From contig NZ_CP022221.1 in the NCBI RefSeq assembly GCF_004114935.1, positions 3,431,001 through 3,495,000 of the forward strand: DNA of 64,000 bases. The letters are read 5' to 3'. Shown piece by piece: positions 31,436 to 45,320 of this stretch. The stretch's first letter is position 1. Each line of letters begins with the position of its first letter. The notes below the pieces were generated by a model. It was not told the DNA's origin. It did no database searches and saw only the letters and a list, made by a program, of their open reading frames with translations. The DNA comes from Bradyrhizobium zhanjiangense (GTDB taxonomy: Bacteria > Pseudomonadota > Alphaproteobacteria > Rhizobiales > Xanthobacteraceae). The position numbers and the translations under genes were made by a program.

Positions 31436-31723
31436 TTACTTCTGCTTGCGATTCGGTCGGATCGGCTTGCGACCCTTGGGTAATGTCTTGGGCGTCGTCG
31501 CTCCTCTAGGGGGCTGAACGAAGAATTCCGACAACTGAACGCCTAGTGTTTCCGCCAGTCGATCGAGCAGATCAATCGTCGGGTTCTCCGATTGCCGTTC
31601 AAGGCCACTCATGTACGAGCGATCTATCCCAGCATCGTAAGCCAATTGCTCTTGCGGAATGCCGCGATCGACGCGGATCCGGCGGACATTCCAGGCCACA
31701 AGCGCACGAGCTTTCATGCGCAA
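31436..31723 (-). CDS. qseC: XRE-family regulator, QseC-like
   Basis: 95 residues with a Cro/CI helix-turn-helix (about 10-62; IPQEQLAYDAGIDRSYMSGLERQSENPT) and a basic, Pro-rich tail. It is divergent from a DUF2285 protein resembling QseM. The same pair, a Cro-like QseC and the antiactivator QseM, controls transfer of ICEMlSymR7A. The 85-bp gap between them should hold the operators. Identity as QseC is by family and position; this is not the E. coli sensor kinase of that name. Confidence 0.7.
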   Translation of the reverse strand: MRMKARALVAWNVRRIRVDRGIPQEQLAYDAGIDRSYMSGLERQSENPTIDLLDRLAETLGVQLSEFFVQPPRGATTPKTLPKGRKPIRPNRKQK

Positions 31724-31808: not shown

Positions 31809-32093
31809 ATGAGATGCCGTACGCTAATGAATAGACTGCCGCTGGACCCCGACGTTGCAGATGTGGCCCCGAGTGAATCGGCGATGACGGCCTATGACGA
31901 AGGGCATGTGGTCACGTACATGCGCCTTCTGCAGGCGGAGGGTGAGGGGGCGGACTGGCGCGAAGTGGCTCGCGTGGTCTTGCATATGGACCCAGAGCGA
32001 GAGCCGGATCGTGCGCGGCGCTCATATCAGAGTCATCTTGCGCGCGCCAAGTGGGTGACGGAGCAGGGGCGACTCTTCCGCGGCACAGGCTGA
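31809..32093 (+). CDS. qseM: DUF2285 protein, QseM-like antiactivator
   Basis: 94 residues (ATG 31809; ATG 31827 is an alternative). The start LDPDVADVAPSESAMTAYDEGHVVTYMRLL and the later GADWREVARVVLHMDPEREPDRARR match the short, stand-alone DUF2285 proteins of these ICEs. In ICEMlSymR7A, QseM binds and blocks both TraR and the excision activator FseA. Here the FseA-like gene is 170 bp downstream, while no TraR gene is visible in the window. Confidence 0.75.
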   Translation: MRCRTLMNRLPLDPDVADVAPSESAMTAYDEGHVVTYMRLLQAEGEGADWREVARVVLHMDPEREPDRARRSYQSHLARAKWVTEQGRLFRGTG

Positions 32094-32263: not shown

Positions 32264-32458
32264 ATGCCTGAATTCGACTGGCGGTCGCCGGAATCCTACA
32301 AGAGCCTACAAGACGCGGAAATCACCGACATCGTCTGGGAATGTCTCCGCCGCAACGCGGACTATCGACGCGAGTATGAACTGATGATCGCAAGCAGCCC
32401 GAACGGCGAAGTGACGGAGGAATTCAGGAGGAGGTGGGGCGTCTGCTTTCGCCCATGA
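32264..32458 (+). CDS. fseA: FseA N-terminal part (DUF6499), frame 1 of a +1 frameshifted gene
   Basis: 64 residues from ATG 32264 (GGCGGAAG upstream). MPEFDWRSPESY and the following helices are the DUF6499 domain. The frame ends at TGA 32456, right after W-G-V-C-F-R-P. The DUF2285 domain continues without a start codon in the +1 frame. The sequence before the stop is TTT-CGC-CCA-TGA (32447-32458); tRNA-Phe could slip from TTT to TTC at TTT-C. This matches the split excision activator FseA of ICEMlSymR7A, made by programmed +1 frameshifting. Confidence 0.8.
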   Translation: MPEFDWRSPESYKSLQDAEITDIVWECLRRNADYRREYELMIASSPNGEVTEEFRRRWGVCFRP

Positions 32459-33035
32459 CCCGCAGCGGTCCTTCGACGAGCAAACGATCTTTTGGGCACC
32501 TGAGGTTTTAGCCGCGGTCGTTCCGGTCAAAGTCGCAATGGCCGACGACGGCAGGGTGTCGTCTCAGCCACTGCTCGACTTTACAGCTGGCCAAGTACGC
32601 CGCGCTGTCGACGGCTGGCATGCCGTGCTGCGCATCGGTTCGGTGGACCACCGCATTTGGTCCAAGCATGCGCCAGTGCTCGGCGCGTCATACACAGCCG
32701 AATTGCCGTTTGATGGCGATTTCGACGCGCGTGCGTATGCAGCACGGCGGCTGTGGCGCGCGATGAATGGACGCGCGCCAGGTCCTGCATTTCATCAATT
32801 ATCGAAACAGCGACGCGAACGTCTGAGCGCCGCGATCCGCGCGCTCGATGCGCATAGTGCCGGCGGCAGTTATCGCGTTATCGCCGAAGCGCTGTTCGGC
32901 AAAAGGCGCATCCCCGATCGCGCCTGGAAGACGCATGATCTGCGCAATCGAACAATCCGCTTGGTGCAAGGCGGCCTCGCGTTGATGCGCGGTGGTTACC
33001 GCAAACTTCTGCGGCCCGGGCGCAAGGACGAGTAG
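32451..33035 (+). CDS. fseA: FseA C-terminal part (DUF2285), +1 frame
   Basis: About 194 residues read from 32451 in the +1 frame: AHDPQRSFDE, then FWAPEVLAAVVPVKV, and the DUF2285 core ending RAWKTHDLRNRTIRLVQGGLALM. The natural homologues carry both domains in one chain, so the first sensible start is not the internal ATG at 32538 but the frameshift from the DUF6499 part. The fused protein (about 256 residues) should activate the rdfS promoter immediately downstream. Confidence 0.8.
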   Translation, partial: AHDPQRSFDEQTIFWAPEVLAAVVPVKVAMADDGRVSSQPLLDFTAGQVRRAVDGWHAVLRIGSVDHRIWSKHAPVLGASYTAELPFDGDFDARAYAARRLWRAMNGRAPGPAFHQLSKQRRERLSAAIRALDAHSAGGSYRVIAEALFGKRRIPDRAWKTHDLRNRTIRLVQGGLALMRGGYRKLLRPGRKDE

Positions 33036-33044
33036 TGCTCCCAA

Positions 33045-33083
33045 GGGGTGCCGAAAATCGCCCCCTCCATATTCGGCATCCCC
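33045..33083. promoter_or_regulatory. Inverted repeat upstream of rdfS-like gene
   Basis: GGGGTGCCGAA (33045-33055) faces TTCGGCATCCCC (33072-33083), one inserted base, 16-bp spacer, 84 bp before the ATG of the RdfS-like gene. A candidate binding site for the FseA-like activator; alternatively a hairpin ending fseA (no T-tract). Confidence 0.45.
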
Positions 33084-33166: not shown

Positions 33167-33448
33167 ATGCCCGATCCGATGGCCGGTCTTCCCCCGCGAT
33201 TCCTGCGTACACCTGAGGCCGCGCGCTATCTTGGCCTATCCGGTCGCACGCTCGAGAAGCACCGCACGTACGGCACCGGACCAACATATCGAAAGATTGG
33301 CGGACGTGTCGTCTACGCCGTCGATGACCTGAAAGCATGGGCCGACCGCGGCGCCAAGACGTCGACCTCCGATCCCGGCAAGGGGACCGTGCTGCCCGCC
33401 AAGAAGCATCCGGCCCTGCGCCCCTACGCAGGTCAAGAACGTCGCTGA
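33167..33448 (+). CDS. rdfS: AlpA/MerR-type helix-turn-helix protein, RdfS-like
   Basis: 93 residues from ATG 33167 (GGAG upstream). PRFLRTPEAARYLGLSGRTLEKHR is a helix-turn-helix, followed by the wing GPTYRKIGGRVVYAVDDLKAWAD, the standard excisionase/AlpA layout, and a basic tail. Its position directly after the FseA-like gene and before repA and the transfer genes matches RdfS, the recombination directionality factor of ICEMlSymR7A, which drives excision. Assignment is by family and order. Confidence 0.75.
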   Translation: MPDPMAGLPPRFLRTPEAARYLGLSGRTLEKHRTYGTGPTYRKIGGRVVYAVDDLKAWADRGAKTSTSDPGKGTVLPAKKHPALRPYAGQERR

Positions 33449-33455
33449 TGTCAGC

Positions 33456-34352
33456 ATGAGAGCAGTGACTATGCGGCGCAAACTCCATTCCGAGCGCGAC
33501 CAGCTTGAGCTCTTTCGGGCGCTGCCGGGTGATCTCGCGCCCCGCGATGCGCAAGATCTGATGGCTTATCCGTTCTTCTCGCTTGCAAAAACAAAGCGAA
33601 CTGTGCCGATCGATTTCCGCGCAGGTGCGATCTCAATTCGTGTCGAAGCTGTTCCGGAACACGGCATGGCGACCATCTGGGATGCAGACGTTCTGATCTG
33701 GGCGGCGTCCCAGATCATCGAAGCACGTGATCCCGGCTTGAAGACGTCGCGCCTGATGGCTGCAACGCCTTACGAAATTTTGACGTTCGTCGGCCGCGGC
33801 ACCAGCGCGCGCGACTATGACCGCCTGAAGGCAGGTCTCGACAGACTCCAGTCAACGACGGTGCTGACGTCGATCCGTCAACCGCCAGAACGGCGACGGC
33901 ATCGCTTCTCCTGGATCAACGAATGGAAGGAGACGGCCGATGCAAACGGTCGTCCATTTGGGATCGAACTGATTCTGCCGGATTGGTTTTACGCCGGCGT
34001 CATCGATGAAGCGCTCGTGCTGACGATCGATCGCGCCTATTTCGAGCTGATGGGCGGACTTGAGCGGTGGCTCTACCGGCTCGTGCGCAAGCACGGTGGA
34101 CGCCAGGACGGCGGCTGGAGTGTTGACCTTGTGCACCTCCATGCCAAGTCCGGCATCCTCTCGCCACTCAATCACTTTGCTTACGACGTACGTCAGATCG
34201 TCCAGCGCCAGACATTGCCCGGCTATCAGCTCGTGCTCTCGTGCGATCCGAACGGCATCGAGCGACCGAACTTCGCGCCAACGCCTGTTGATCCCCTAAC
34301 GGCTCGCCTGCGCCGGCGCGGTCCTATTCCAAACTCGGAGGATAGCCTGTGA
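33456..34352 (+). CDS. repA: Replication initiator protein A
   Basis: 298 residues. Start HSERDQLELFRALPGDLAPRDAQDLMAYPFFSLAKTKRTVPIDF, then the winged-helix initiator core (TPYEILTFVGRG, GGLERWLYRLVRKHGG). RepA-like initiators of this type are carried by rhizobial ICEs and allow replication of the excised circle. Iteron-like repeats follow the stop codon at 34358. It is 7 bp after rdfS, so probably expressed with it when excision is induced. Confidence 0.85.
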   Translation: MRAVTMRRKLHSERDQLELFRALPGDLAPRDAQDLMAYPFFSLAKTKRTVPIDFRAGAISIRVEAVPEHGMATIWDADVLIWAASQIIEARDPGLKTSRLMAATPYEILTFVGRGTSARDYDRLKAGLDRLQSTTVLTSIRQPPERRRHRFSWINEWKETADANGRPFGIELILPDWFYAGVIDEALVLTIDRAYFELMGGLERWLYRLVRKHGGRQDGGWSVDLVHLHAKSGILSPLNHFAYDVRQIVQRQTLPGYQLVLSCDPNGIERPNFAPTPVDPLTARLRRRGPIPNSEDSL

Positions 34353-34745: not shown

Positions 34746-36073
34746 GGCTAACCAGCGCCGTGCTTGATGGCTTCAAACGCCGTCATGAAGCCGCCGGCAA
34801 GGAAAGTTGCGATCTCACCCAAATCCCCGTCTCCTCGGGAGACGCTGCTTCGCCGTGGCAGAAGGAGAAGGCGCGCGTGGAAGCGGCCGGGTCGCGGAGG
34901 CCCCTAATGCGCCGCAGCGACCCGGCCGCGCTTGCCGCCGGCGCCAAACCGGAAGGTCGTACCATCGATCCAGATCTTGTGCAGCAGCACGGCGAGCGCG
35001 CGCGCCACCGGGGTCGCCGCGCGCTTCAGACCCTTCTTCCTGGCCAGCCGCAGGCCCCACAGGTTCAGCTTAAAGTTCTTCGGAATGCGGGTGAGGATCG
35101 CGATCGCCGCCTCGTACAGCATCGCCCGTGTCAACTCGTCGCCGCATTTGGAGATGCCGCCGATGCGGTCGGTCTGTCCGGATTGATAGCGCCGCGGCGT
35201 CAGGCCGAAATGGGCGCCGACATTGGTCGACTTCCTGAATCGTGCGGGATCGTCGACAGTCGCGCGGAATGTCAGTGCCACGAGCGCGCCGACACCAGGA
35301 ACGGTCATCATCCGCCGCACCGCATCGTCGCTCCGCGCCGCCGCCAGCGCCAGGCGCTGCAGTTTTGCCAGCTGCAGCCGCATTGCGCTTCTAGCGTCCA
35401 GCAATGGCGTGACGATCGCCTCCAGCTCCTTCTTCCCGGCCATGATCTCGCGCACCCGCGCGTCAAAGCGGCCGACCGAGATCTCGCCGACCTTGAGGCC
35501 AAACGGGCGCAACAGGCCGCGGATCATGTTCTCCATATCCAGCACCTTGCCGAGCAGCGCCTTGCGTCCGACCAGCAGCGCGCGCAGCGTTTGCGCGCCC
35601 TCCGATTTGACATGGACCGCACGGAACCAGCCGGTTCGCATCATTTGCACGATGCCCCTGGCGTCGTTGCGGTCGGTCTTGTTCAGCATCGCGTTCAGCG
35701 CCGCCTTGGCGTGCCGGATTTCGATGCAGATCACGGACAGGCCTTTTTCGGCGAGCGCCGTGTAGAGCCAGGCCGAGTACGAGAACGCCTCCAGCCCGAC
35801 GCGCTTGACGTGGATTCCCCATTCGGCCAGGAACAGCTCGATCGCGTCCGGATCGGTCTCGAGCTTCGCTTCCCGGACGACATTGCCGTCGCCATCCACC
35901 ACGCAAATATTCGTCGCCTCCAGCGACACGTCGAGCCCTGCATAGATGTCCATCGTTCGCCTCCACCGCCGACCGCCGGACCGCACCGCGCGCTCCGTTC
36001 GCGAATCGCTGCGAGGCATTTTCGCAGCGGCACGGCCGGCGAGGGGGCACCGGTCAGTACCCCGGCTAACCAG
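34746..36073 (-). mobile_element. IS110-family insertion sequence, copy 1, with 10-bp direct repeats
   Basis: GGCTAACCAG occurs at 34746-34755 and at 36064-36073, 1318 bp apart, bracketing the transposase gene on the minus strand. IS110 elements leave a repeated core rather than terminal inverted repeats, and 1.3 kb is a normal length. The right copy abuts a perfect palindrome AGAAATCC-TTC-GGATTTCT (36072-36090), a typical target context. The non-coding ends (34756-34903 and 35954-36063) could encode the guide (bridge) RNA of this family. Confidence 0.75.
34904..35953 (-). CDS. IS110-family transposase, copy 1
   Basis: 349 residues from ATG 35953. The N-terminal RuvC-like DEDD domain shows GLDVS, the Glu in GLEA, and Asp pairs in NKTDRNDARG; the C-terminal Tnp20 domain shows MMTVPGVGALVAL and the Ser region PRRYQSGQTD. 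It appears intact. An in-frame start at 36019 would add residues outside the family. Confidence 0.93.
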   Translation of the reverse strand: MDIYAGLDVSLEATNICVVDGDGNVVREAKLETDPDAIELFLAEWGIHVKRVGLEAFSYSAWLYTALAEKGLSVICIEIRHAKAALNAMLNKTDRNDARGIVQMMRTGWFRAVHVKSEGAQTLRALLVGRKALLGKVLDMENMIRGLLRPFGLKVGEISVGRFDARVREIMAGKKELEAIVTPLLDARSAMRLQLAKLQRLALAAARSDDAVRRMMTVPGVGALVALTFRATVDDPARFRKSTNVGAHFGLTPRRYQSGQTDRIGGISKCGDELTRAMLYEAAIAILTRIPKNFKLNLWGLRLARKKGLKRAATPVARALAVLLHKIWIDGTTFRFGAGGKRGRVAAAH

Positions 36074-36231: not shown

Positions 36232-36696
36232 ATGAGCGATCTTACCGAAGTAGAAGTGCTGTGGCTTGAGAAGCGCATTGAAAACCGCGTTCGGTTCGGT
36301 CGCATTGTCAAGGAACGGAAGCTTGATCGCCATCGGCGCGTCCTGTCATTTGGGCCCGGCAGCATCTTTGCCTTCGTCCGTTGGACCTCGAGCGACTTTG
36401 GAACGATCATTTCGCGGATCGACATCTTGCGCGCAGTTGCGCCAGGTCAGCGTTGCTTAACCGTGCCGTATGTGACGCCCGGCGGAGAGATTTTGCTGCG
36501 TCTGTCCTGCTGGCCGAAGGTCGAACGGGTGTTGCAGATGATCGATGCCGTTGAGGCGCTCGGCATCGAACCGGCGGATGTTGCGCCCGATCATTGGCAT
36601 CACGTTCATAACCGTTTGTCCGTCAACGAGAACCCGCGCCCGTATACGAAAGCGCGCCACCAGGCCTGGCTGCATCGTCAACGGGTGATGCGATGA
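36232..36696 (+). CDS. DUF2840 protein
   Basis: 154 residues with the family segments VRFGRIVKERKLDRHRRVLSF, SIFAFVRWTSSDFGT and HWHHVHNRL. Function unknown; in ICEs of this type it lies between parA and traF. It overlaps traF by 4 bp. The first ~20 bp upstream contain GGGGAGCC as a possible ribosome-binding site. Confidence 0.88.
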   Translation: MSDLTEVEVLWLEKRIENRVRFGRIVKERKLDRHRRVLSFGPGSIFAFVRWTSSDFGTIISRIDILRAVAPGQRCLTVPYVTPGGEILLRLSCWPKVERVLQMIDAVEALGIEPADVAPDHWHHVHNRLSVNENPRPYTKARHQAWLHRQRVMR

Positions 36697-37205
36697 CAGG
36701 CCGCTTGAAGATATTGGCCGCGACGTGTGGGACTGCTGCTGCTCTCATCGCGACGGTCGTCCTGGAGCCGCTTCCGCATTATATCTGGAACGCATCCGCG
36801 AGCGTGCCGATCGGTCTCTACCGCCTCCGACCGGTGGACCAATTCCAAGTCACTGAATTGGTCGCCGTGCAGCCGCCGGAACCGCTCGCGACGTTCCTCG
36901 ACCTTAACGGCTATTTGCCCATTGGCGTCCCCATGCTGAAGCGCGTGCTCGCCCTTCCGGGGCAGAGTGTTTGCAGAACCGGCCTCACGATTTCGGTCGA
37001 CGACGTCGCGGTGGGGGAGGCGAAGGATCACGACAGACGAGGCAGGCCGCTGCCGAAGTGGCAGGGCTGCCGCGTCGTCGGCGACGGCGAGCTGTTTCTG
37101 ATGAACTGGCAGTCGGACGACTCTCTTGATGGCCGGTATTTTGGATTTCTTCCGGCATCTAGCGTGATCGGCCGTGCGACGCCGGTATGGACGTCGGAGC
37201 AGTGA
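36693..37205 (+). CDS. traF: TraF, S26-family signal peptidase
   Basis: 170 residues. One N-terminal membrane helix (about 8-26), then the catalytic Ser in NASASVPIGLY and the catalytic Lys in PMLKRVLALPGQ, the S26 Ser-Lys dyad. In RP4-type systems TraF matures and circularises the TrbC pilin; trbC lies at 59231. It overlaps both neighbours. Confidence 0.92.
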   Translation: MTGRLKILAATCGTAAALIATVVLEPLPHYIWNASASVPIGLYRLRPVDQFQVTELVAVQPPEPLATFLDLNGYLPIGVPMLKRVLALPGQSVCRTGLTISVDDVAVGEAKDHDRRGRPLPKWQGCRVVGDGELFLMNWQSDDSLDGRYFGFLPASSVIGRATPVWTSEQ

Positions 37206-38038
37206 TCGTGCCTATTCGACGTGTTCTCCTTGCCATTCCCTTGTTCGATCGATTGCGGGATCATTCCTCCATCTCGATCGATATCTGCAAGGCTGGCGCG
37301 AGCCCGACCGCGTGCTTGGGTCGGTTGGGCACGCGCGTTTGTGCTGTCGTGCCCCTGATGCTTCTTCTGACCGCATTCGACAGTTCTGCTTTGGCCCGGA
37401 GCGGATCAGCCGCCCAGCCGGCGATCAGTCAGACCGCTCACTCATTTGCCGGCTTCATCAATGAAGCCTCACAACGCTTTGCGATTGCGCCGAACTGGAT
37501 CCGATCAGTCCAAAGCATCGAGAGTGCTGGTGACGTGCACGCCAGATCGCCAAAGGGCGCAATGGGCCTGATGCAAATCATGCCGGCGACATGGGCGGAA
37601 CTTCGCGAGCGCTACAATCTCGGGAACGACCCCTACGACCCGCATGACAACATTCTGGCCGGCACGGCGTACTTGCGCGAACTGCTCGATCGGTATGGCT
37701 CGCCTGGCGTGTTTGCCGCGTACAACGCGGGACCAGCTCGCTATGAAGAGCATCTCGCTGGTAGCTCCTTGCCAGACGAGACGCGAGCATTCGTCGCAAA
37801 GCTAGCAAATCTGCTTGCCATCGAACTGCCGCTGAGGTGGACCTCCAGCGGACAGTCATCAGCAGCTGCGACGTTGTTCGTCGGGCGAGCCAATCTTATG
37901 AAAACGCGCGATCGGTTGCCGGCGCTCATGCCGTCCAGCGGTGTCACGACCGCAATTTCGGCGCCCGATGTTTCGCACATGGTTCCCCGGCCAATTGGCG
38001 TGTTCGTCCCTCGATCGGATTCGGGAGCATCGCAATGA
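37187..38038 (+). CDS. Lytic transglycosylase of the transfer system
   Basis: 283 residues (ATG 37187, overlapping traF by 19 bp; GTG 37208 is an alternative). A signal-like hydrophobic segment (about 50-70) precedes the SLT domain, with the catalytic Glu in QSIESAGDVHARS and the motif GAMGLMQIMPATW, ending AAYNAGP. It opens peptidoglycan for the conjugation channel. IS110 copy 2 starts within 285 bp downstream. Confidence 0.92.
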   Translation: MDVGAVIVPIRRVLLAIPLFDRLRDHSSISIDICKAGASPTACLGRLGTRVCAVVPLMLLLTAFDSSALARSGSAAQPAISQTAHSFAGFINEASQRFAIAPNWIRSVQSIESAGDVHARSPKGAMGLMQIMPATWAELRERYNLGNDPYDPHDNILAGTAYLRELLDRYGSPGVFAAYNAGPARYEEHLAGSSLPDETRAFVAKLANLLAIELPLRWTSSGQSSAAATLFVGRANLMKTRDRLPALMPSSGVTTAISAPDVSHMVPRPIGVFVPRSDSGASQ

Positions 38039-38323
38039 CCAAGTGTGCGGGTTCGCAAGCTGATGGCGTATGGGCGATGCCTTCGGCCCGCGCTCTCTAC
38101 TCGTCGCTTCGCTCCTCACCGAGCCACCCTACGGGTGTCTCGGCTCTTCGGGTAACGATCGCTATCGCAAGCGCTCGCAAACAGTCGGGGGCGGCCGGGG
38201 GACTACGACGGCAGGACGGCCGCCCGTAATCGGTCTGCAGCGGGATGTGCGGCCGCAGCGCAAGTGGTCTGCGCGATGAATGAAGCGCACACTGCGCCGC
38301 CTCAGCAACGCGGGAGGCGAGCG
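38039..38323. other. Non-coding end of IS110 copy 2, candidate guide-RNA region
   Basis: 285 bp with a strong imperfect hairpin near 38119-38145 (CCGAGCCACCC facing GGGTGTCTCGG, 10 of 11 bp). IS110-group elements encode a bridge RNA in the end upstream of the transposase. The exact element boundary was not found. Confidence 0.4.
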
Positions 38324-39412
38324 ATGGAATTCTTCTGTGGCCTGGATGTCGGCATGGACGAGACGGCGATCTGCGTGGTGGACGACAAAGACCAGGTGGC
38401 CTTGGAGGTCACCGTGGTAACCGACCCCGAGACGATCAAGGTGGCGCTCACGCCGTATCTCGGCCGCTTGCGCCGGGTCGGCCACGAGGCGGGGTCGCTG
38501 TCACCCTGGCTGCACCCGGAATTGCTTCGCCTCGGTGTACCCGCGGTCTGCCTGGAAACCTTCCACGTCCGCGCCGCGCTGAAGGCGCAGCGCAACAAGA
38601 CCGACCGGACAGACGCGCTCGGCCTGGCGCATTTGATGCGCACCGGTTGGTTCCGCAAGGCGCATATCAAGAGCGAAGCCTGCTACCGGCTGCGGCTGCT
38701 CTTGACGCACCGGCGCAATCTGAAGCGCAAGTTTCTGGATCTGGAAAACGCGATTCGGCACTCGCTGAAGGTGTTTGGCATTCGTCTCAGTCATGTTGGC
38801 CGCGGCGGCTTCGCGCAGGCGGTGCGCGAGGTGGTGGCGGGTGATGCGCTGGTCAGCGAGCTGATCGATGCCATGCTGAACGCGCGCGCCGCGCTGTGGA
38901 AGGAGTACTGCCGGCTGCACGATCTCGTGGTCAAGCTGGTGGCGAGCCATGAACTGTGCCGGCGCTTCATGCAGATCCCCGGCGTCGGCCCGGTGGCAGC
39001 GCTGAGCTTCATGACGGCGATCGACGACCCTGCACGCTTCAAGCGGTCGCGTGATGTGGCGGCCTATTTTGGCTTGACATCGCGGCGTTGGCAGTCCGGC
39101 ACGTCGATCGACGTGCAGGGGCGGATCAGCAAGGCGGGCGATGGCGACGTGCGGCGGGCGCTTTATGAGGCGGCAAGTGCGTTGCTGACCCGCTTCAAGC
39201 GCAAGGACAAGGTCAAGACGTGGGGGCTGGCGATCGCCAAGCGCACGAGCCACCGCAAGGCGATCGTTGCGGTGGCACGCAAGCTCGCGGTGATCATGCA
39301 TGCGATGTGGGTCGATGGCACGTTTTATTGCGGCGATCCGGGCGCATCGCAGGCGGACGTGAGCGCGCGTGCCGCCGCCAAGGACCGCAAGCTGCTCGGA
39401 GCCCATGCATGA
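38324..39412 (+). CDS. IS110-family transposase, copy 2
   Basis: 362 residues from ATG 38324 (GGGAGGCGAGCG upstream). DEDD pattern: GLDVG, Glu in GHEAG, Asp pairs in NKTDRTDALG. The Tnp20 part has FMQIPGVGPVAALSF and SRRWQSGTSID. Intact, and clearly different in sequence from copies 1 and 3. Confidence 0.93.
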   Translation: MEFFCGLDVGMDETAICVVDDKDQVALEVTVVTDPETIKVALTPYLGRLRRVGHEAGSLSPWLHPELLRLGVPAVCLETFHVRAALKAQRNKTDRTDALGLAHLMRTGWFRKAHIKSEACYRLRLLLTHRRNLKRKFLDLENAIRHSLKVFGIRLSHVGRGGFAQAVREVVAGDALVSELIDAMLNARAALWKEYCRLHDLVVKLVASHELCRRFMQIPGVGPVAALSFMTAIDDPARFKRSRDVAAYFGLTSRRWQSGTSIDVQGRISKAGDGDVRRALYEAASALLTRFKRKDKVKTWGLAIAKRTSHRKAIVAVARKLAVIMHAMWVDGTFYCGDPGASQADVSARAAAKDRKLLGAHA

Positions 39413-39917
39413 CCAACCCGAGCCGATTGCAGATCAATGACCCGATGACCGCAAGGCTTTGAACACGGAGCTCCGCCACAAGCGGAAGAGACCTGGTGCA
39501 GATCAACGACGACGGAACGCACGCTATCTTGCCTGTGGCCACGCACGTGACGTGCGATGTGGACCACGCCGGACTGCCTGTGATGTGGCTCCGTCATGCC
39601 GAGGGAAAGATGCGCCGCGACGGCGTCCGCGCTGCCCTGCTGCAGCGAGATTATGCCGTCGATGAGCGCGGAACAGTGCACGGCGCACCGGGACTCCCGG
39701 CTGTGGTGGCACAGCGCGTTCAAGCGTGGCGCAGAGGTCCTTGTCGCAAGCGAGAAAGGAAGCGAAAATGGCTGAGAGCAAGCCAACGACACGACCGATT
39801 AAGAGGGCTCTTCAAATCGGGCTCCGAGAAACCAGTGCACGGCGATAGCCGCCGTGTGGCGGAATCCGGAGCCCGGTGCAACGACTTAGGTCGTCGTTGC
39901 CACACAGGAGAGCTCTG
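39413..39917. other. Gap between IS110 copies 2 and 3
   Basis: 505 bp. An open frame (39496-39918) encodes a hydrophilic Arg-rich product with no family signature and is not called. The last ~120 bp contain a CAACGAC...GTCGTCGTTG hairpin just before the ribosome-binding site of copy 3 and may be its guide-RNA end. Confidence 0.4.
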
Positions 39918-40982
39918 ATGAAGCTGTACGTTGGATTGGACGTCGGTCTTAAAGAAACCAGTCTGTGCATCGTCGATAGCGATGGCCTCACGCTCCGCGA
40001 AGTCAAGGTGAGCACAGAGCCAGAGGCGATCCGCTCCGCTGTAGAGGGCTACGCGGATCGCCTCGATAGGGTCGGAATCGAGGCGTCATCGCTAGGTATC
40101 TGGCTGTATCGCGAGCTGCAGCCAGCGGGGCTCCCGATTATTGTCGTCGAAGCGCGTCACATGCGCGTTTCGCTGTCGACAATGCGGAACAAGACCGACC
40201 GGAATGACGCGCGCGGCATCGCGCAGATGATGCGGTTGGGCTGGTATCGCGCAGTTCATGTCAAGAATATCGACATGCAGAAGATGCGCACGCTGCTGAC
40301 CAGCCGAAAGCTGCTCAAGCGCAAACTGATCGACCTCGAAAACCACATTCGTGGTGCGCTGCGGGCCTATGGGTTGCTCGTTGGAGCCATCGCCCGCGGT
40401 GCCTACGAAGTCCGTGTGCGCGAGCTGATCGAGCGCAGCGATCCGATCTTCGTAATGACCATTGAGGCCATGTTGGATGTGCGCCGCGCCATCCTTGAGG
40501 GTTACGATCGGCTGCATCGCGTGCTGCTGCAGGTGGTCCAGCATGATGCCGTCTGCCGGCGCCTGATGACGGTTCCAGGCGTCGGTCCCGTTGCGGCCCT
40601 GTCGTTCAAGGTCGGCGTCGATGATCCCCGGCGCTTTGCCAGATCGCGAACGGTAGGCGCGCATTTTGGCTTGGCGCCGAGGCGTCACCAGTCCGGCACG
40701 TCGATCGACTACGAAGGGCGCATCAGCAAACAGGGCGACGTAGCAGTGCGCGAGGCGCTTTCCGAGGCGGCCGCAAGCCTGCTGCTGCGGGTCAGGAAAT
40801 GGTCGGCGCTGCGGGCGTGGGGTCTGCGGATCGCCAAACGGTCGAGCATGCTGTGCGCGATCACCGCGGTCGCGCGCAAGCTCGCAAGCATTCTGCACCG
40901 GATGTGGGTCAGCGAGACCGACTTCCACGTCGGGTTCGGCGCCAAAGTCACGCAGCGGCTGCGCTTGAAGCCTGCACGGTAG
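39918..40982 (+). CDS. IS110-family transposase, copy 3
   Basis: 354 residues from ATG 39918 (AGGAGAGCTCTG upstream). DEDD pattern: GLDVG, Glu in GIEAS, Asp pairs in NKTDRNDARG; the Tnp20 part has LMTVPGVGPVAALSF and PRRHQSGTSID. Intact. Element ends are uncertain: similar words CCGATTA at about 39796 and 41358 would give a 1.56-kb element but are weak evidence. Confidence 0.93.
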   Translation: MKLYVGLDVGLKETSLCIVDSDGLTLREVKVSTEPEAIRSAVEGYADRLDRVGIEASSLGIWLYRELQPAGLPIIVVEARHMRVSLSTMRNKTDRNDARGIAQMMRLGWYRAVHVKNIDMQKMRTLLTSRKLLKRKLIDLENHIRGALRAYGLLVGAIARGAYEVRVRELIERSDPIFVMTIEAMLDVRRAILEGYDRLHRVLLQVVQHDAVCRRLMTVPGVGPVAALSFKVGVDDPRRFARSRTVGAHFGLAPRRHQSGTSIDYEGRISKQGDVAVREALSEAAASLLLRVRKWSALRAWGLRIAKRSSMLCAITAVARKLASILHRMWVSETDFHVGFGAKVTQRLRLKPAR

Positions 40983-41440: not shown

Positions 41441-41531
41441 TCGGGGCGCGTGCCGTGCTTTGCATTTTGATTAATGTAATCAAAGGCGTTTTCGGCACCG
41501 TGTGCGTTTTCGATGGTGGGGAGGCCCTGCC
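41441..41531. other. Candidate origin of transfer (oriT)
   Basis: A perfect inverted repeat TTTGATTA-ATG-TAATCAAA lies at 41466-41484, 47 bp before the relaxase start, in an otherwise non-coding strip. Relaxases of this type usually act on an oriT immediately upstream of their own gene, and short inverted repeats flank the nick site. Confidence 0.5.
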
Positions 41532-43295
41532 GTGAGCGTGGGCGACAGCGATCTGCGTATTCGGCCTGGGCGCATTCGCAGCACCCGCGCGCCGAAACAA
41601 AAGAGCTTCATCAATCAGGTCCTGCGTGCCGCGAAGAAAGCAGGACACACCTCGGGTCAGACCGCAGCCGGCAGCCGTTCGGCGGCCTATGGGCGCTCGA
41701 CGTTTGGCCGCGGGCGCGTCGCCTTTAGCCGCGCCAGATTGTTCAGCCCGACGCGGCGCGTTGTGGTGAAGGCGCGCGTGGTTCGTCATAAAGGGCGAGC
41801 CTTCCGTTCAGCGCCACTGACCGCCCACCTCTCATATCTGAAGCGCGACGGCGTGACCCGGAGCGGCGAGCGTGCCGAGATGTTCGATGCGGGCAGCGAC
41901 CGCGCTGACAGCGCGGCTTTCGCAGAACGGTGCAAAGACGACCGGCATCATTTCCGGTTCATCGTCTCGCCGGAGGAAGCCGGCGACATGACCGACCTGA
42001 AGGCCTTCACCCGCGATCTCGCCAGGCAGATGGAAACCGATCTCGGCACGCGGCTCGATTGGGTGGCTGTCGATCATTGGAATACCGACAACCCTCACGT
42101 CCATATTCTCGTTCGTGGAGTAGATAAGGAAGGGGCGGATCTCGTGATCTCCCGCGACTACATCAGCCAGGGCTTGCGCTCACGCGCCGAGGAACTGGTC
42201 GCTATCGAGCTGGGGCCAAAGCTTGAGCACGAGATCCGTAATTCGCTGGAGAGGGAAGTCACAGCTGAACGATGGACGCGACTCGACCGAGAAATCCGAC
42301 TGGCGGCTGATGAGGCCGGCTACATCGATGTTCGGCCGGAGAATCCCGGAAAGTCCGATCCCGAGATCAGGCGCCTGATGGTCGGCCGCCTTAAGCACTT
42401 GGAGAAGATGGGCCTTGCCGCACCCGTCGCGTCAGGGGAATGGATGGTAGGGCTAGAAGTTGAGCGCAGCTTGCGCGACCTCGGCATGCGCGGCGACATC
42501 ATCAAAACCATGCACCGTGCCTTCACCGAGAGTGGGGAAGCGCGCGGCGTCGCCGACTTCGTCATCGAAGGCGGGCAGCCGACGTCGCAGATCATCGGTC
42601 GGTTGATCGATCGCGGTTTGCATGACGAACTGACTGGTGAGGCCTACGCTTTGATCGATGGAACAGACGGACGCGCTCATCATGTGCGCTTCCGAGGTCT
42701 GGAGGCTTTCGACCACGCACCGTCGATCGGCGGAATCGTCGAAATCCGACGTTTCGATCATACCGGCGATCCGCAGCCCACCTTGCTCCTCGCGACCCGT
42801 TCCGATCTTGATCTACCTGGGCAGGTTACCGCGAACGGGGCGACTTGGCTCGACCATAGGCTGGTCGAACGCGACCCCATGCCGCTCGCCATGGGCGGAT
42901 TCGGCCGCGAGACCCGCAGGGCCATGGAAGCCCGGACCGAGCATCTGATTCAGAAGGGTCTGGCACGGCGGCAGGGCCAACGCATCATCTTGCAGCGCGA
43001 CCTCCTCAACACGTTGCGCCGGCGCGAGCTGGACGAGGTGGCCGCAAAGGTCTCGGCCGACACGGGGCTAGCTCATGTGGCGGCCGCATCCGGGGAACAC
43101 GTGGCAGGCACGTATCGCCAGCGGCTGACCCTCAGCTCGGGACGCTTCGCCATGATCGATAATGGGCTCGGCTTCCAGCTAGTGCCGTGGTCGCGCGAGC
43201 TCGAAAAGAGGCTCGGCCAACACGTCACCGGCGTCGTCAAGGATGGCGGTGGCATCGAATGGGGCTTTGGTCGGAAGCGCCACCTCGGCCTCTAG
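41532..43295 (+). CDS. rlxS: DUF3363-type MOB relaxase (RlxS-like)
   Basis: 587 residues from GTG 41532 (GGGAGG eight bases upstream). The N-terminal relaxase half carries HHFRFIVSPEEAGD, DWVAVDHWNTDNPHVHILVRG (the HxH metal site) and later helices; the C-terminal DUF3363 half ends ERRLGQH-like, GGGIEWGFGRKRHLGL. It nicks oriT and pilots the strand. It is somewhat shorter than the usual ~650 residues. Directly upstream of traG. Confidence 0.9.
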   Translation: MSVGDSDLRIRPGRIRSTRAPKQKSFINQVLRAAKKAGHTSGQTAAGSRSAAYGRSTFGRGRVAFSRARLFSPTRRVVVKARVVRHKGRAFRSAPLTAHLSYLKRDGVTRSGERAEMFDAGSDRADSAAFAERCKDDRHHFRFIVSPEEAGDMTDLKAFTRDLARQMETDLGTRLDWVAVDHWNTDNPHVHILVRGVDKEGADLVISRDYISQGLRSRAEELVAIELGPKLEHEIRNSLEREVTAERWTRLDREIRLAADEAGYIDVRPENPGKSDPEIRRLMVGRLKHLEKMGLAAPVASGEWMVGLEVERSLRDLGMRGDIIKTMHRAFTESGEARGVADFVIEGGQPTSQIIGRLIDRGLHDELTGEAYALIDGTDGRAHHVRFRGLEAFDHAPSIGGIVEIRRFDHTGDPQPTLLLATRSDLDLPGQVTANGATWLDHRLVERDPMPLAMGGFGRETRRAMEARTEHLIQKGLARRQGQRIILQRDLLNTLRRRELDEVAAKVSADTGLAHVAAASGEHVAGTYRQRLTLSSGRFAMIDNGLGFQLVPWSRELEKRLGQHVTGVVKDGGGIEWGFGRKRHLGL

Positions 43296-43331: not shown

Positions 43332-45320
43332 ATGTCCGGAACCAAAATCCTCTGGGGACAGGTGATCGTCGTTGGCCTGATCGTTTTGTTGGCCATCTGG
43401 GGAGCGACCGAATGGACGGCCTGGCGGCTCGCGTACCAGCCGGAGCTTGGTAGGCCGTGGTTCGAGTTGGGAGGCTGGAAAATCTACTATCCCCCAATCT
43501 TCTTCTGGTGGTGGTTTGTCTACGACGCCTATGCCCCTCCGGTCTTTGTCGAGGGTGCCTTCATCGCGGCGTCGGGGACCTTCATTTCGATCGCGGCAGC
43601 GATCGGCATGTCGGTGTGGCGGGCGCGCGAGGCCAAGAACGTCGAGACCTATGGTTCGGCGCGCTGGGCTGGTCCAGAGGAGGTTCGAGCGGCCGGACTT
43701 CTTGGTCCGGATGGTGTGGTGCTGGGCAAACTCGATCGCGACTACCTCCGCCATGATGGGCCGGAGCACGTGTTGTGTTTTGCTCCCACCCGGTCCGGCA
43801 AGGGTGTCGGACTAGTCGTTCCCTCGTTGTTGGCATGGCCGGGTTCGGCCATCGTTCACGACATCAAGGGTGAGAACTGGCAGCTGACCGCCGGTTTCCG
43901 CTCCTGTCATGGCCGCGTGCTGCTGTTCGACCCGACCAACCCAAAGTCCTCAGCCTACAATCCGCTGCTCGAGGTCCGGCGCGGGGAGTGGGAGGTCCGC
44001 GATGTCCAGAACGTTGCCGATGTTCTGGTGGACCCCGAAGGCTCGCTCGACAAGCGGAACCACTGGGAGAAGACCAGTCACTCGCTTCTTGTCGGCGCCA
44101 TCCTCCATGTTCTCTATGCCGAGGCGGACAAGACCTTGGCTGGTGTTGCTGCTTTCCTGTCGGACCCGAAGCGGCCGATCGAGGCTACGTTGAAGGCCAT
44201 GATGACCACACCGCATCTCGGCGAGCATGGGGTCCATCCCGTGGTCGCCTCGACCGCCCGCGAACTCCTCAACAAATCCGAGAATGAACGTTCAGGCGTC
44301 CTGTCAACCGCGATGTCGTTTCTCGGGCTTTACCGCGATCCCGTCGTGGCTCAGGTGACTTGTCGCTGCGACTGGCGGATTGCCGATCTGATCGCAGATA
44401 GTCGCCCGACGACGCTTTACCTCGTGGTGCCGCCGTCAGATATTTCTCGGACCAAGCCGCTGATCCGTCTGGTGCTGAATCAGATCGGCCGGCGACTGAC
44501 CGAGGACCTGCAGGCCCGCGATCGAAAGCATCGCGTCCTGATGATGCTCGATGAGTTCCCAGCCCTTGGGCGGCTTGATTTCTTCGAGTCCGCGCTCGCT
44601 TTCATGGCGGGGTACGGCATCAAGAGTTTCTTGATCGCGCAGTCACTCAATCAGATCGAGAAGGCATACGGGCCGAACAATGCGATCCTGGACAACTGCC
44701 ACGTCCGCGTCAGCTTCGCGACCAATGATGAGAGGACGGCGAAGCGTGTGTCCGACGCGTTGGGTACGGCGACCGAGATGAGGGCGATGAAGAACTATGC
44801 CGGTCACAGGTTGAACCCGTGGCTGGGCCACCTCATGGTTTCGCGGCAGGAGACGGCAAGGCCGCTGCTGACCCCGGGCGAGGTCATGCAGCTTCCGCCG
44901 AGAGACGAGATCGTCATGGTGGCGGGGACAGCGCCGATCCGAGCCAAGAAGGTCCGCTATTACGAGGATAGGCGATTCACCGAGCGGGTTCTGCCGCCGC
45001 CTGATCCAGCTACGGCCGGCCGATCGTCGCGCACGGACGGATGGTCAGCGCTCGTACCGTTGAAGCCGACGGCAGGTCCAACTGACAAAGCCACGGAGGC
45101 CGAGGAAAACACGGCGAACAGCGGGCTCCGTCGTGAGCCTGAACTCCCCGATCACGTTGCGATCGCCAAGGAGACGACCGAACCGACGCCGGCAGAGGAG
45201 TTTGCCGCCGTGCTCGACGATGACGAAGATGCGGCCCGCCAGTCCCGGCTCATACGCCAGCAGATGCGCCGCGTCGCTCGTCAGGTCGCGCTGGACCCGA
45301 ATGACGGTATGGAGCTCTGA
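43332..45320 (+). CDS. traG: TraG/VirD4 type IV coupling protein
   Basis: 662 residues. N-terminal membrane helices (about 8-28 and 75-95), Walker A APTRSGKGVG (about 155-164), Walker B MMLDEFPALG (about 400), and the NVETYGSARWA segment typical of TraG. The hexameric ATPase brings the relaxase-DNA complex to the mating channel. The C-terminal ~100 residues are acidic and low-complexity, as often seen. Followed 6 bp later by the CopG gene. Confidence 0.95.
   Translation: MSGTKILWGQVIVVGLIVLLAIWGATEWTAWRLAYQPELGRPWFELGGWKIYYPPIFFWWWFVYDAYAPPVFVEGAFIAASGTFISIAAAIGMSVWRAREAKNVETYGSARWAGPEEVRAAGLLGPDGVVLGKLDRDYLRHDGPEHVLCFAPTRSGKGVGLVVPSLLAWPGSAIVHDIKGENWQLTAGFRSCHGRVLLFDPTNPKSSAYNPLLEVRRGEWEVRDVQNVADVLVDPEGSLDKRNHWEKTSHSLLVGAILHVLYAEADKTLAGVAAFLSDPKRPIEATLKAMMTTPHLGEHGVHPVVASTARELLNKSENERSGVLSTAMSFLGLYRDPVVAQVTCRCDWRIADLIADSRPTTLYLVVPPSDISRTKPLIRLVLNQIGRRLTEDLQARDRKHRVLMMLDEFPALGRLDFFESALAFMAGYGIKSFLIAQSLNQIEKAYGPNNAILDNCHVRVSFATNDERTAKRVSDALGTATEMRAMKNYAGHRLNPWLGHLMVSRQETARPLLTPGEVMQLPPRDEIVMVAGTAPIRAKKVRYYEDRRFTERVLPPPDPATAGRSSRTDGWSALVPLKPTAGPTDKATEAEENTANSGLRREPELPDHVAIAKETTEPTPAEEFAAVLDDDEDAARQSRLIRQQMRRVARQVALDPNDGMEL

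Follow-up and report, generated by a model that had tools for sequence, protein, structure and literature searches.

What does the gene at this locus of Bradyrhizobium zhanjiangense encode, given that its two domains lie in different reading frames? We examined it within a window, the whole 64,000-nucleotide stretch of DNA analysed (C1:3431001-3495000 of a 9.34-Mb single-contig genome), whose nearest named relatives are mostly Bradyrhizobium. The 0-frame ORF runs from the ATG at 32264 to the TGA at 32456-32458 on the plus strand and carries DUF6499, the N-terminal domain of the FseA family. The +1 frame (TTC at 32448, then GCC, CAT, GAC) is open until the stop at 33033-33035, is intact over 195 codons and carries DUF2285, the C-terminal domain of that family (Pfam E-values in Table 1). 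The junction reads AGG AGG AGG TGG GGC GTC TGC TTT CGC CCA TGA C, with TTT at 32447-32449; DUF2285 in the +1 frame together with UUU-C at the junction corresponds to the frameshift type of FseA. An earlier note, made from the letters of the window, had stated that the DUF6499 frame ends at 32456, that DUF2285 lies in the +1 frame and that TTT-CGC-CCA-TGA occupies the junction. Coordinates, domains and letters bear this out, and the split is confirmed as a real feature. The note had also described the +1 part as lacking a start, which is correct for the 30 codons after the slip but not beyond, as the earliest ATG, GTG or TTG of this frame is the ATG at 32538, 30 codons past the slip. We consider it very probable that the gene is the fseA of an integrative and conjugative element of the ICEMlSymR7A type, in which a +1 slip would join DUF6499 and DUF2285 into one activator, probably one that turns on excision of the element.

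Table 1 Features of the split gene and its surroundings (positions counted from the first letter of the window)
Feature	Position	Strand	Evidence
XRE-type HTH protein, QseC-like by position only	31436..31723	-	PF01381 E 2.1e-10
Lone DUF2285 protein, QseM-like antiactivator candidate	31809..32093	+	PF10074 E 0.00085, below Pfam cut-off
fseA 5' ORF, DUF6499, 0 frame	32264..32458	+	PF20109 E 2.7e-20; dN/dS 0.13, 68 distinct relatives
Candidate relocated anti-SD element AGG AGG	32426..32431	+	-21 to -16 from slip codon
Slip site UUU-C (0-frame TTT, +1-frame TTC)	32447..32450	+	TTT invariant; codon-phase switch
fseA 3' ORF, +1 frame, DUF2285 (RovC_DNA-bd)	32448..33035	+	PF10074 E 7.2e-32; dN/dS 0.19, first 29 codons
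Inverted repeat TGCCGAA-N16-TTCGGCA, candidate FseA box	33049..33078	+	0 in 100 shuffles
Small HTH protein, RdfS-like excision factor candidate	33167..33448	+	PF12728 E 8.4e-9; TIGR01764 excise E 0.0056, below cut-off
Replication initiator protein A (RepA)	33456..34352	+	PF10134 E 1.7e-84
TraF-like signal peptidase	36693..37205	+	PF10502 E 8.7e-30; TIGR02771 E 1.4e-26, just below cut-off
Lytic transglycosylase	37187..38038	+	PF01464 E 1.4e-23
RlxS-like relaxase	41502..43295	+	PF11843 E 7.7e-86; NF041267 RlxS E 3.8e-177, 590.9 bits vs cut-off 850
TraG/VirD4 coupling protein	43332..45320	+	PF02534 E 4.5e-100

DUF6499 was searched in 195 genomes of the genus (146 matching at E 0.001, with up to 30 first-look candidates scored per genome) and, at E 0.0001, in 297 genomes of the order (61 matching), 385 of the class (24) and 398 of the phylum (42); these genome draws overlap, and part of the matching places was fetched. 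In the 273 locus sequences analysed, 69 of them named loci from one scan of genome contigs, our own profiles gave 270 DUF6499 matches in 266 sequences, repeat fetches of the same gene included. DUF2285 lies in the +1 frame relative to DUF6499 in 230 of the 270 matches, in the same ORF in 20 and in another frame in 13 (mostly window-clade copies carrying indels); seven matches showed no DUF2285 beside DUF6499. This distribution rules out a sequencing error or a private mutation. TGGGG-N7-TTT-[C/T] is kept in 66 of the 69 nearest named loci, the exceptions being L093 (stop), L110 (deletion) and L094, a close relative that forms a natural fusion via a one-base deletion upstream of the slip. An uninterrupted gene in relatives, which the earlier note would have read as a sign of mutation, was found in a single fused locus among these 69.

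That the gene is decayed, with a chance indel in a pseudogene, is barely credible: additional indels or stops do occur in the N or C part of several relatives (a further indel in the C part in 6/61 window-clade representatives), but position and frame are the same across the 230 matches, purifying selection is strong and the +1 frame is intact here. The 0-frame stop near the slip is not conserved, as relatives show CGA, TAC or TAA and many continue in frame 0; we dropped it as a required part of the mechanism because a stop close to the slip is missing from many split relatives.

Several single loci stand apart. L020 is a single-frame version that retains TTT, with the frame restored farther downstream. 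An identical slip junction occurs in eight loci (L052-L055, L057, L059, L114 and others) named Bradyrhizobium, Afipia, Rhizorhabdus MAG and others, reflecting either recent transfer or a binning error. L089, from a record named Frankia sp. RB7, has a Bradyrhizobium-type fseA and is probably misnamed or contaminated.

The slip codon is TTT in 182 of 183 distinct split junctions (48 bases, with TGGGG), L158 having its TTT one codon later, and in 1 of 14 unsplit, single-frame relatives (Fisher p 2.7e-18, ignoring kinship among sequences). This set leaves out 19 of the 230 +1 matches, which have no in-frame TGGGG; 12 of them are fetches of the UGU class described below and two are their TTT sisters with AGG. 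The base 3' of TTT in the 182 junctions is C (173) or T (9), which fits the re-pairing requirement of tRNA-Phe. Within the window clade, TTT is found in 68/68 distinct sequences. In these 68 distinct, ungapped relatives (three sequences with stops were dropped beforehand), variation concentrates at third codon positions, those of frame 0 as far as TTT and those of the +1 frame beyond it, with entropies at codon positions 1/2/3 of 0.25/0.29/0.88 before the slip in frame 0 and 0.51/0.34/0.94 after it in +1. The dN/dS of the N part (44 codons plus the slip codon) is 0.13 in frame 0 and 2.04 when read in +1; that of the first 29 codons of the C part is 0.19 in +1 and 1.00 and 1.88 in the other frames. 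Slippage at TTT is supported by the phase switch, the invariant TTT and purifying selection in both frames, and the assignment to an FseA-like DUF6499-DUF2285 regulator by the domains and the 230 of 270 matches. On these sequence comparisons, frameshifting at UUU-C is well supported. Transcriptional slippage was rejected, since the site lacks any extended stretch of T or A.

The same data bear on whether two separate proteins are made, with the DUF2285 ORF starting independently at ATG 32538 and no frameshift. An in-frame ATG does exist there, annotation pipelines likewise call two genes (for example in B. guangxiense and M. jarvisii), and for the homologous pair of Azorhizobium one paper argues for two genes with their own starts and no frameshift. 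Against this, the 29 codons before ATG 32538 evolve as +1 codons, a conserved stretch that a start at this ATG would lose. The first +1 start after the slip is moreover scattered between codons 19 and 59 in the 68 relatives, one of which has none, and a start upstream of the slip in this frame occurs in only 9/68. We regard separate proteins as very unlikely.

Two other places for the shift were weighed against TTT: the tandem rare AGG AGG codons and CCA-TGA. Tandem AGG causes frameshifting in Escherichia coli, AGG is rare here (8/161 Arg codons in seven window genes), and TGA-C is a weak stop. Between AGG and TTT, however, Gly GGC/GGT third-position changes and R/K changes prove silent or conservative when read in frame 0, and AGGAGG is missing from 119 of 121 other split junctions, all 121 of which have TTT. 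At the other end, the base after CGC (CGC [C/T/G]CA) varies synonymously as Ala GCN in +1 and nonsynonymously in frame 0, which places the shift before CCA-TGA. A shift at either of these places is highly improbable.

With slippage at UUU-C as the preferred reading, ribosomes would translate DUF6499 in frame 0, and at low frequency the peptidyl-tRNA-Phe on UUU would shift by one base to UUC and continue in +1. Slipped ribosomes would thus yield a single DUF6499-DUF2285 activator and the remainder would terminate at the UGA at 32456; AGGAGG, rich in purines and a short way upstream, probably slows the ribosome or puts it under strain. The activator would then bind the inverted repeat downstream of the gene and turn on the rdfS-like gene at 33167, and the lone DUF2285 protein encoded upstream would be its antiactivator.

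The surroundings of the gene are listed in Table 1. On an annotated Bradyrhizobium guangxiense plasmid the order HTH, HTH, DUF2285, DUF6499, DUF2285, HTH, RepA is the same as in the window, and on plasmid p53363 of this species the gene at the place of 31809..32093 is annotated as DUF2285. PMC10359603 describes the FseA box as a pair of inverted hexamers, separated by 16 bp, that immediately precedes the rdfS -35 element. This hexamer-N16-hexamer geometry beside an RdfS-like gene is present at 33049-33078: GCCGAA-N16-TTCGGC occurs once, at 33050-33077, against 0 in 100 shuffles, and exactly at the matching place in 32/69 related loci. The repeat is a candidate FseA box by geometry and position. 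Elsewhere in the genome, at C1:2040950-2041259 (L004, L006), a DUF2285 broken over two frames is followed by the same GCCGAA-N16-TTCGGC and is probably a remnant. The transfer module contains three IS110-type transposase ORFs, at 34904-36019 (minus strand, assigned by look) and at 38264-39412 and 39876-40982 (both Pfam-confirmed), and since they interrupt it the host element may be immobile. A search of the window for tRNA genes found none, the C part gave no match to PDB chains, and the single phage match was weak.

According to PMC10359603, the W-G-L codons of FseA frameshift sites form an RBS-like UGGGGG. The window has TGG GGC, so the published motif is absent; its absence leaves FseA membership standing, as UGGGGG is a stimulator and not a domain feature. 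The Gly codon is GGG in 0/61 window-clade junctions vs 95/121 other split junctions and 4/14 unsplit relatives (Fisher p 0.0003 for the latter two, kinship ignored), with a background of 15/129 Gly codons in seven window genes. Among distinct junctions, AGGAGG at -21 to -16 is found in 57/61 of the window clade, 2/121 of the other split and 0/14 of the unsplit. The best anti-SD pairing of the window clade averages -12.2 kcal/mol, and a pairing reached by no more than 10% of 40 synonymous shuffles occurs in 60/61 window-clade, 74/121 other split and 1/14 unsplit junctions. Third positions are invariant in 0/36 codons upstream of -24 and in 4/8 within -24 to -1. The pairing strength of AGGAGG and the invariant third positions near the slip indicate an RNA-level element here, farther upstream than UGGGGG. 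The distance of AGGAGG to the slip codon exceeds that of the published UGGGGG and the 3 nt seen in prfB. An SD element placed 8-11 nt before a slippery site promotes shifting to -1; promotion of a +1 shift has been reported for an SD adjoining the E site. AGGAGG may act by pausing, or through the rare AGG codons themselves. In the window clade it is present instead of the published stimulator, which looks new, and a stimulator apparently moved and rebuilt while UUU-C stayed fixed provides a natural series for testing the role of the SD. Outside the window clade, CGA stands directly before the slip codon in 58/121 distinct split junctions; it makes up 21/161 Arg codons in seven window genes.

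The genome contains two further DUF6499 genes. The one at C1:2418191 has TTT TCC (a TTT-T slip), and the one at C1:997030 reads TGG AGG TTG CGG TGT CGC CCA TGA, with UGU in place of UUU. The conjugation module around the latter (C1:997030-997792; L011, L307) also encodes a QseM-like protein, RepA, a relaxase and TraG. A pattern search of 265 genomes of the genus, fixing CGC-NCA-TRA after the slip codon so that other variants would escape, gave 26 places in 23 genomes, 19 with TGT (18 genomes) and seven with TTT. AGG precedes TGT (UGGAGG) in 19/19 TGT places; among TTT members of the subfamily, two distinct sequences have AGG (L198, L205) and seven GGG. Both frames are open in 10/12 distinct TGT sequences. 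In a tree of 20 sequences with the slip and -9 codons masked, nine TGT sequences form one clade (clade A, bootstrap 99), and L200/L201 fall in a separate one (bootstrap 100). The separation suggests either two origins of UGU or, as L200 has some downstream bases in common with clade A, a single origin and a short recombination tract.

In clade A (seven sequences, excluding the broken L290 and L278, which has one additional codon) dN/dS is 0.21 for the N part and 0.18 for the C part in +1, with 2.28, 1.62 and 2.08 in the controls, which argues that both frames remained under selection after the loss of UUU. Changes of the Leu codon preceding CGG (TTG, TTA or CTG) are silent when read in frame 0, and those of the base that follows CGC (C, A or G; L275, L294) are silent when read in +1, so the switch lies between these Leu and Ala codons. 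The UGU class, which is under purifying selection, would thus still require +1. The silent Ala variation also led us to reject slippage at CCA-UGA in this class. TTT to TGT additionally creates a GTG 5 nt after GGAGG in the third frame; a start there was rejected because its ORF ends after 25 codons in most sequences (9 in L202/L278; 172 in L273) and its dN/dS in clade A is 1.62. A separate start of the C part was rejected because 4/12 sequences (L202, L273, L275, L278) have no upstream start in that frame.

Copies of the UGU gene in seven genomes are 99.9-100% identical over 3,029 bases, with recA 91.0-95.7% identical; between G187 and G021 identity is 99.989% over 17,820 bases including relaxase and TraG, with recA at 93.0%. 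Three of the seven genomes (G021, G187 and G122) showed one DUF6499 match each, which is a lower bound. Near-identical elements in genomes with diverged recA point to recent movement of elements carrying a UGU fseA. We tentatively propose, at slightly less than even confidence, that the UGU subfamily, with C1:997030, shifts to +1 without re-pairing of a Phe codon: UGGAGG, in which the otherwise constant Gly is Arg, would be a stronger SD driving the shift, as neither tRNA-Cys (UGU to GUC) nor tRNA-Arg (CGG to GGU) re-pairs. The subfamily would have arisen twice, or once with a short recombination tract, in elements that still move between species. Two broken copies within clade A speak against this proposal. 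Another FseA in the donor may have acted in trans, or frameshifting may simply have been lost. Decay of the class was rejected, as only 2/12 distinct sequences are broken (L273, L290) and selection in clade A is strong. If the class is translated, it would be a bacterial +1 site from which the re-pairing tRNA has been removed, and whether the residue at the junction is Cys or Val would reveal which tRNA occupied the P site. UUU sites cannot tell, since a slip on UUU and a skipped U before UUC give Phe either way.

How do these genes compare with known systems? A literature search, with supplements and subscription journals outside its reach, found no description of the relocated AGGAGG or of the UGU class, and a UGU class with a +1 shift also looks new. 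The earlier note took the gene for a likely second case after R7A, with its own slip site; this did not hold, since PMC10359603 (NAR 2023) states that ~61% of curated FseA homologues require +1 frameshifting and reports the conserved +1 site in alpha-, beta- and gamma-proteobacteria. The cases of R7A and WSM1271 are described in a 2016 review and a 2018 PLoS Genetics paper. The window gene is of the frameshift type described in PMC10359603, in whose accessible part neither a stimulator of the Bradyrhizobium type nor a slip codon other than one for Phe is mentioned. Taken alone, it adds a further FseA whose frameshift is of a known kind, in a family often annotated as pairs of genes.

FseA (msi172-msi171) of ICEMlSymR7A likewise has DUF6499 followed by DUF2285 in +1, a conserved site adjoining W-G, an RdfS-like gene downstream and a lone DUF2285 protein nearby. 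Ramsay and colleagues reportedly placed the R7A slip at UUU to UUC in 2015, which we take to be the same slip as in the window. The window differs in having UGGGGC for UGGGGG, with AGGAGG upstream instead, in showing no TraI2 upstream ORF among the ORFs examined, and in that RepA comes after the rdfS-like gene. The window gene resembles prfB in that a P-site tRNA is proposed to slip by +1 and an SD-like element lies upstream. In prfB a gap of 3 nt separates the SD from CUU, which the stop follows immediately, whereas the window stop is two codons on and not required; in the UGU class, GGAGG lies 3 nt before CGG, which is the spacing of prfB.
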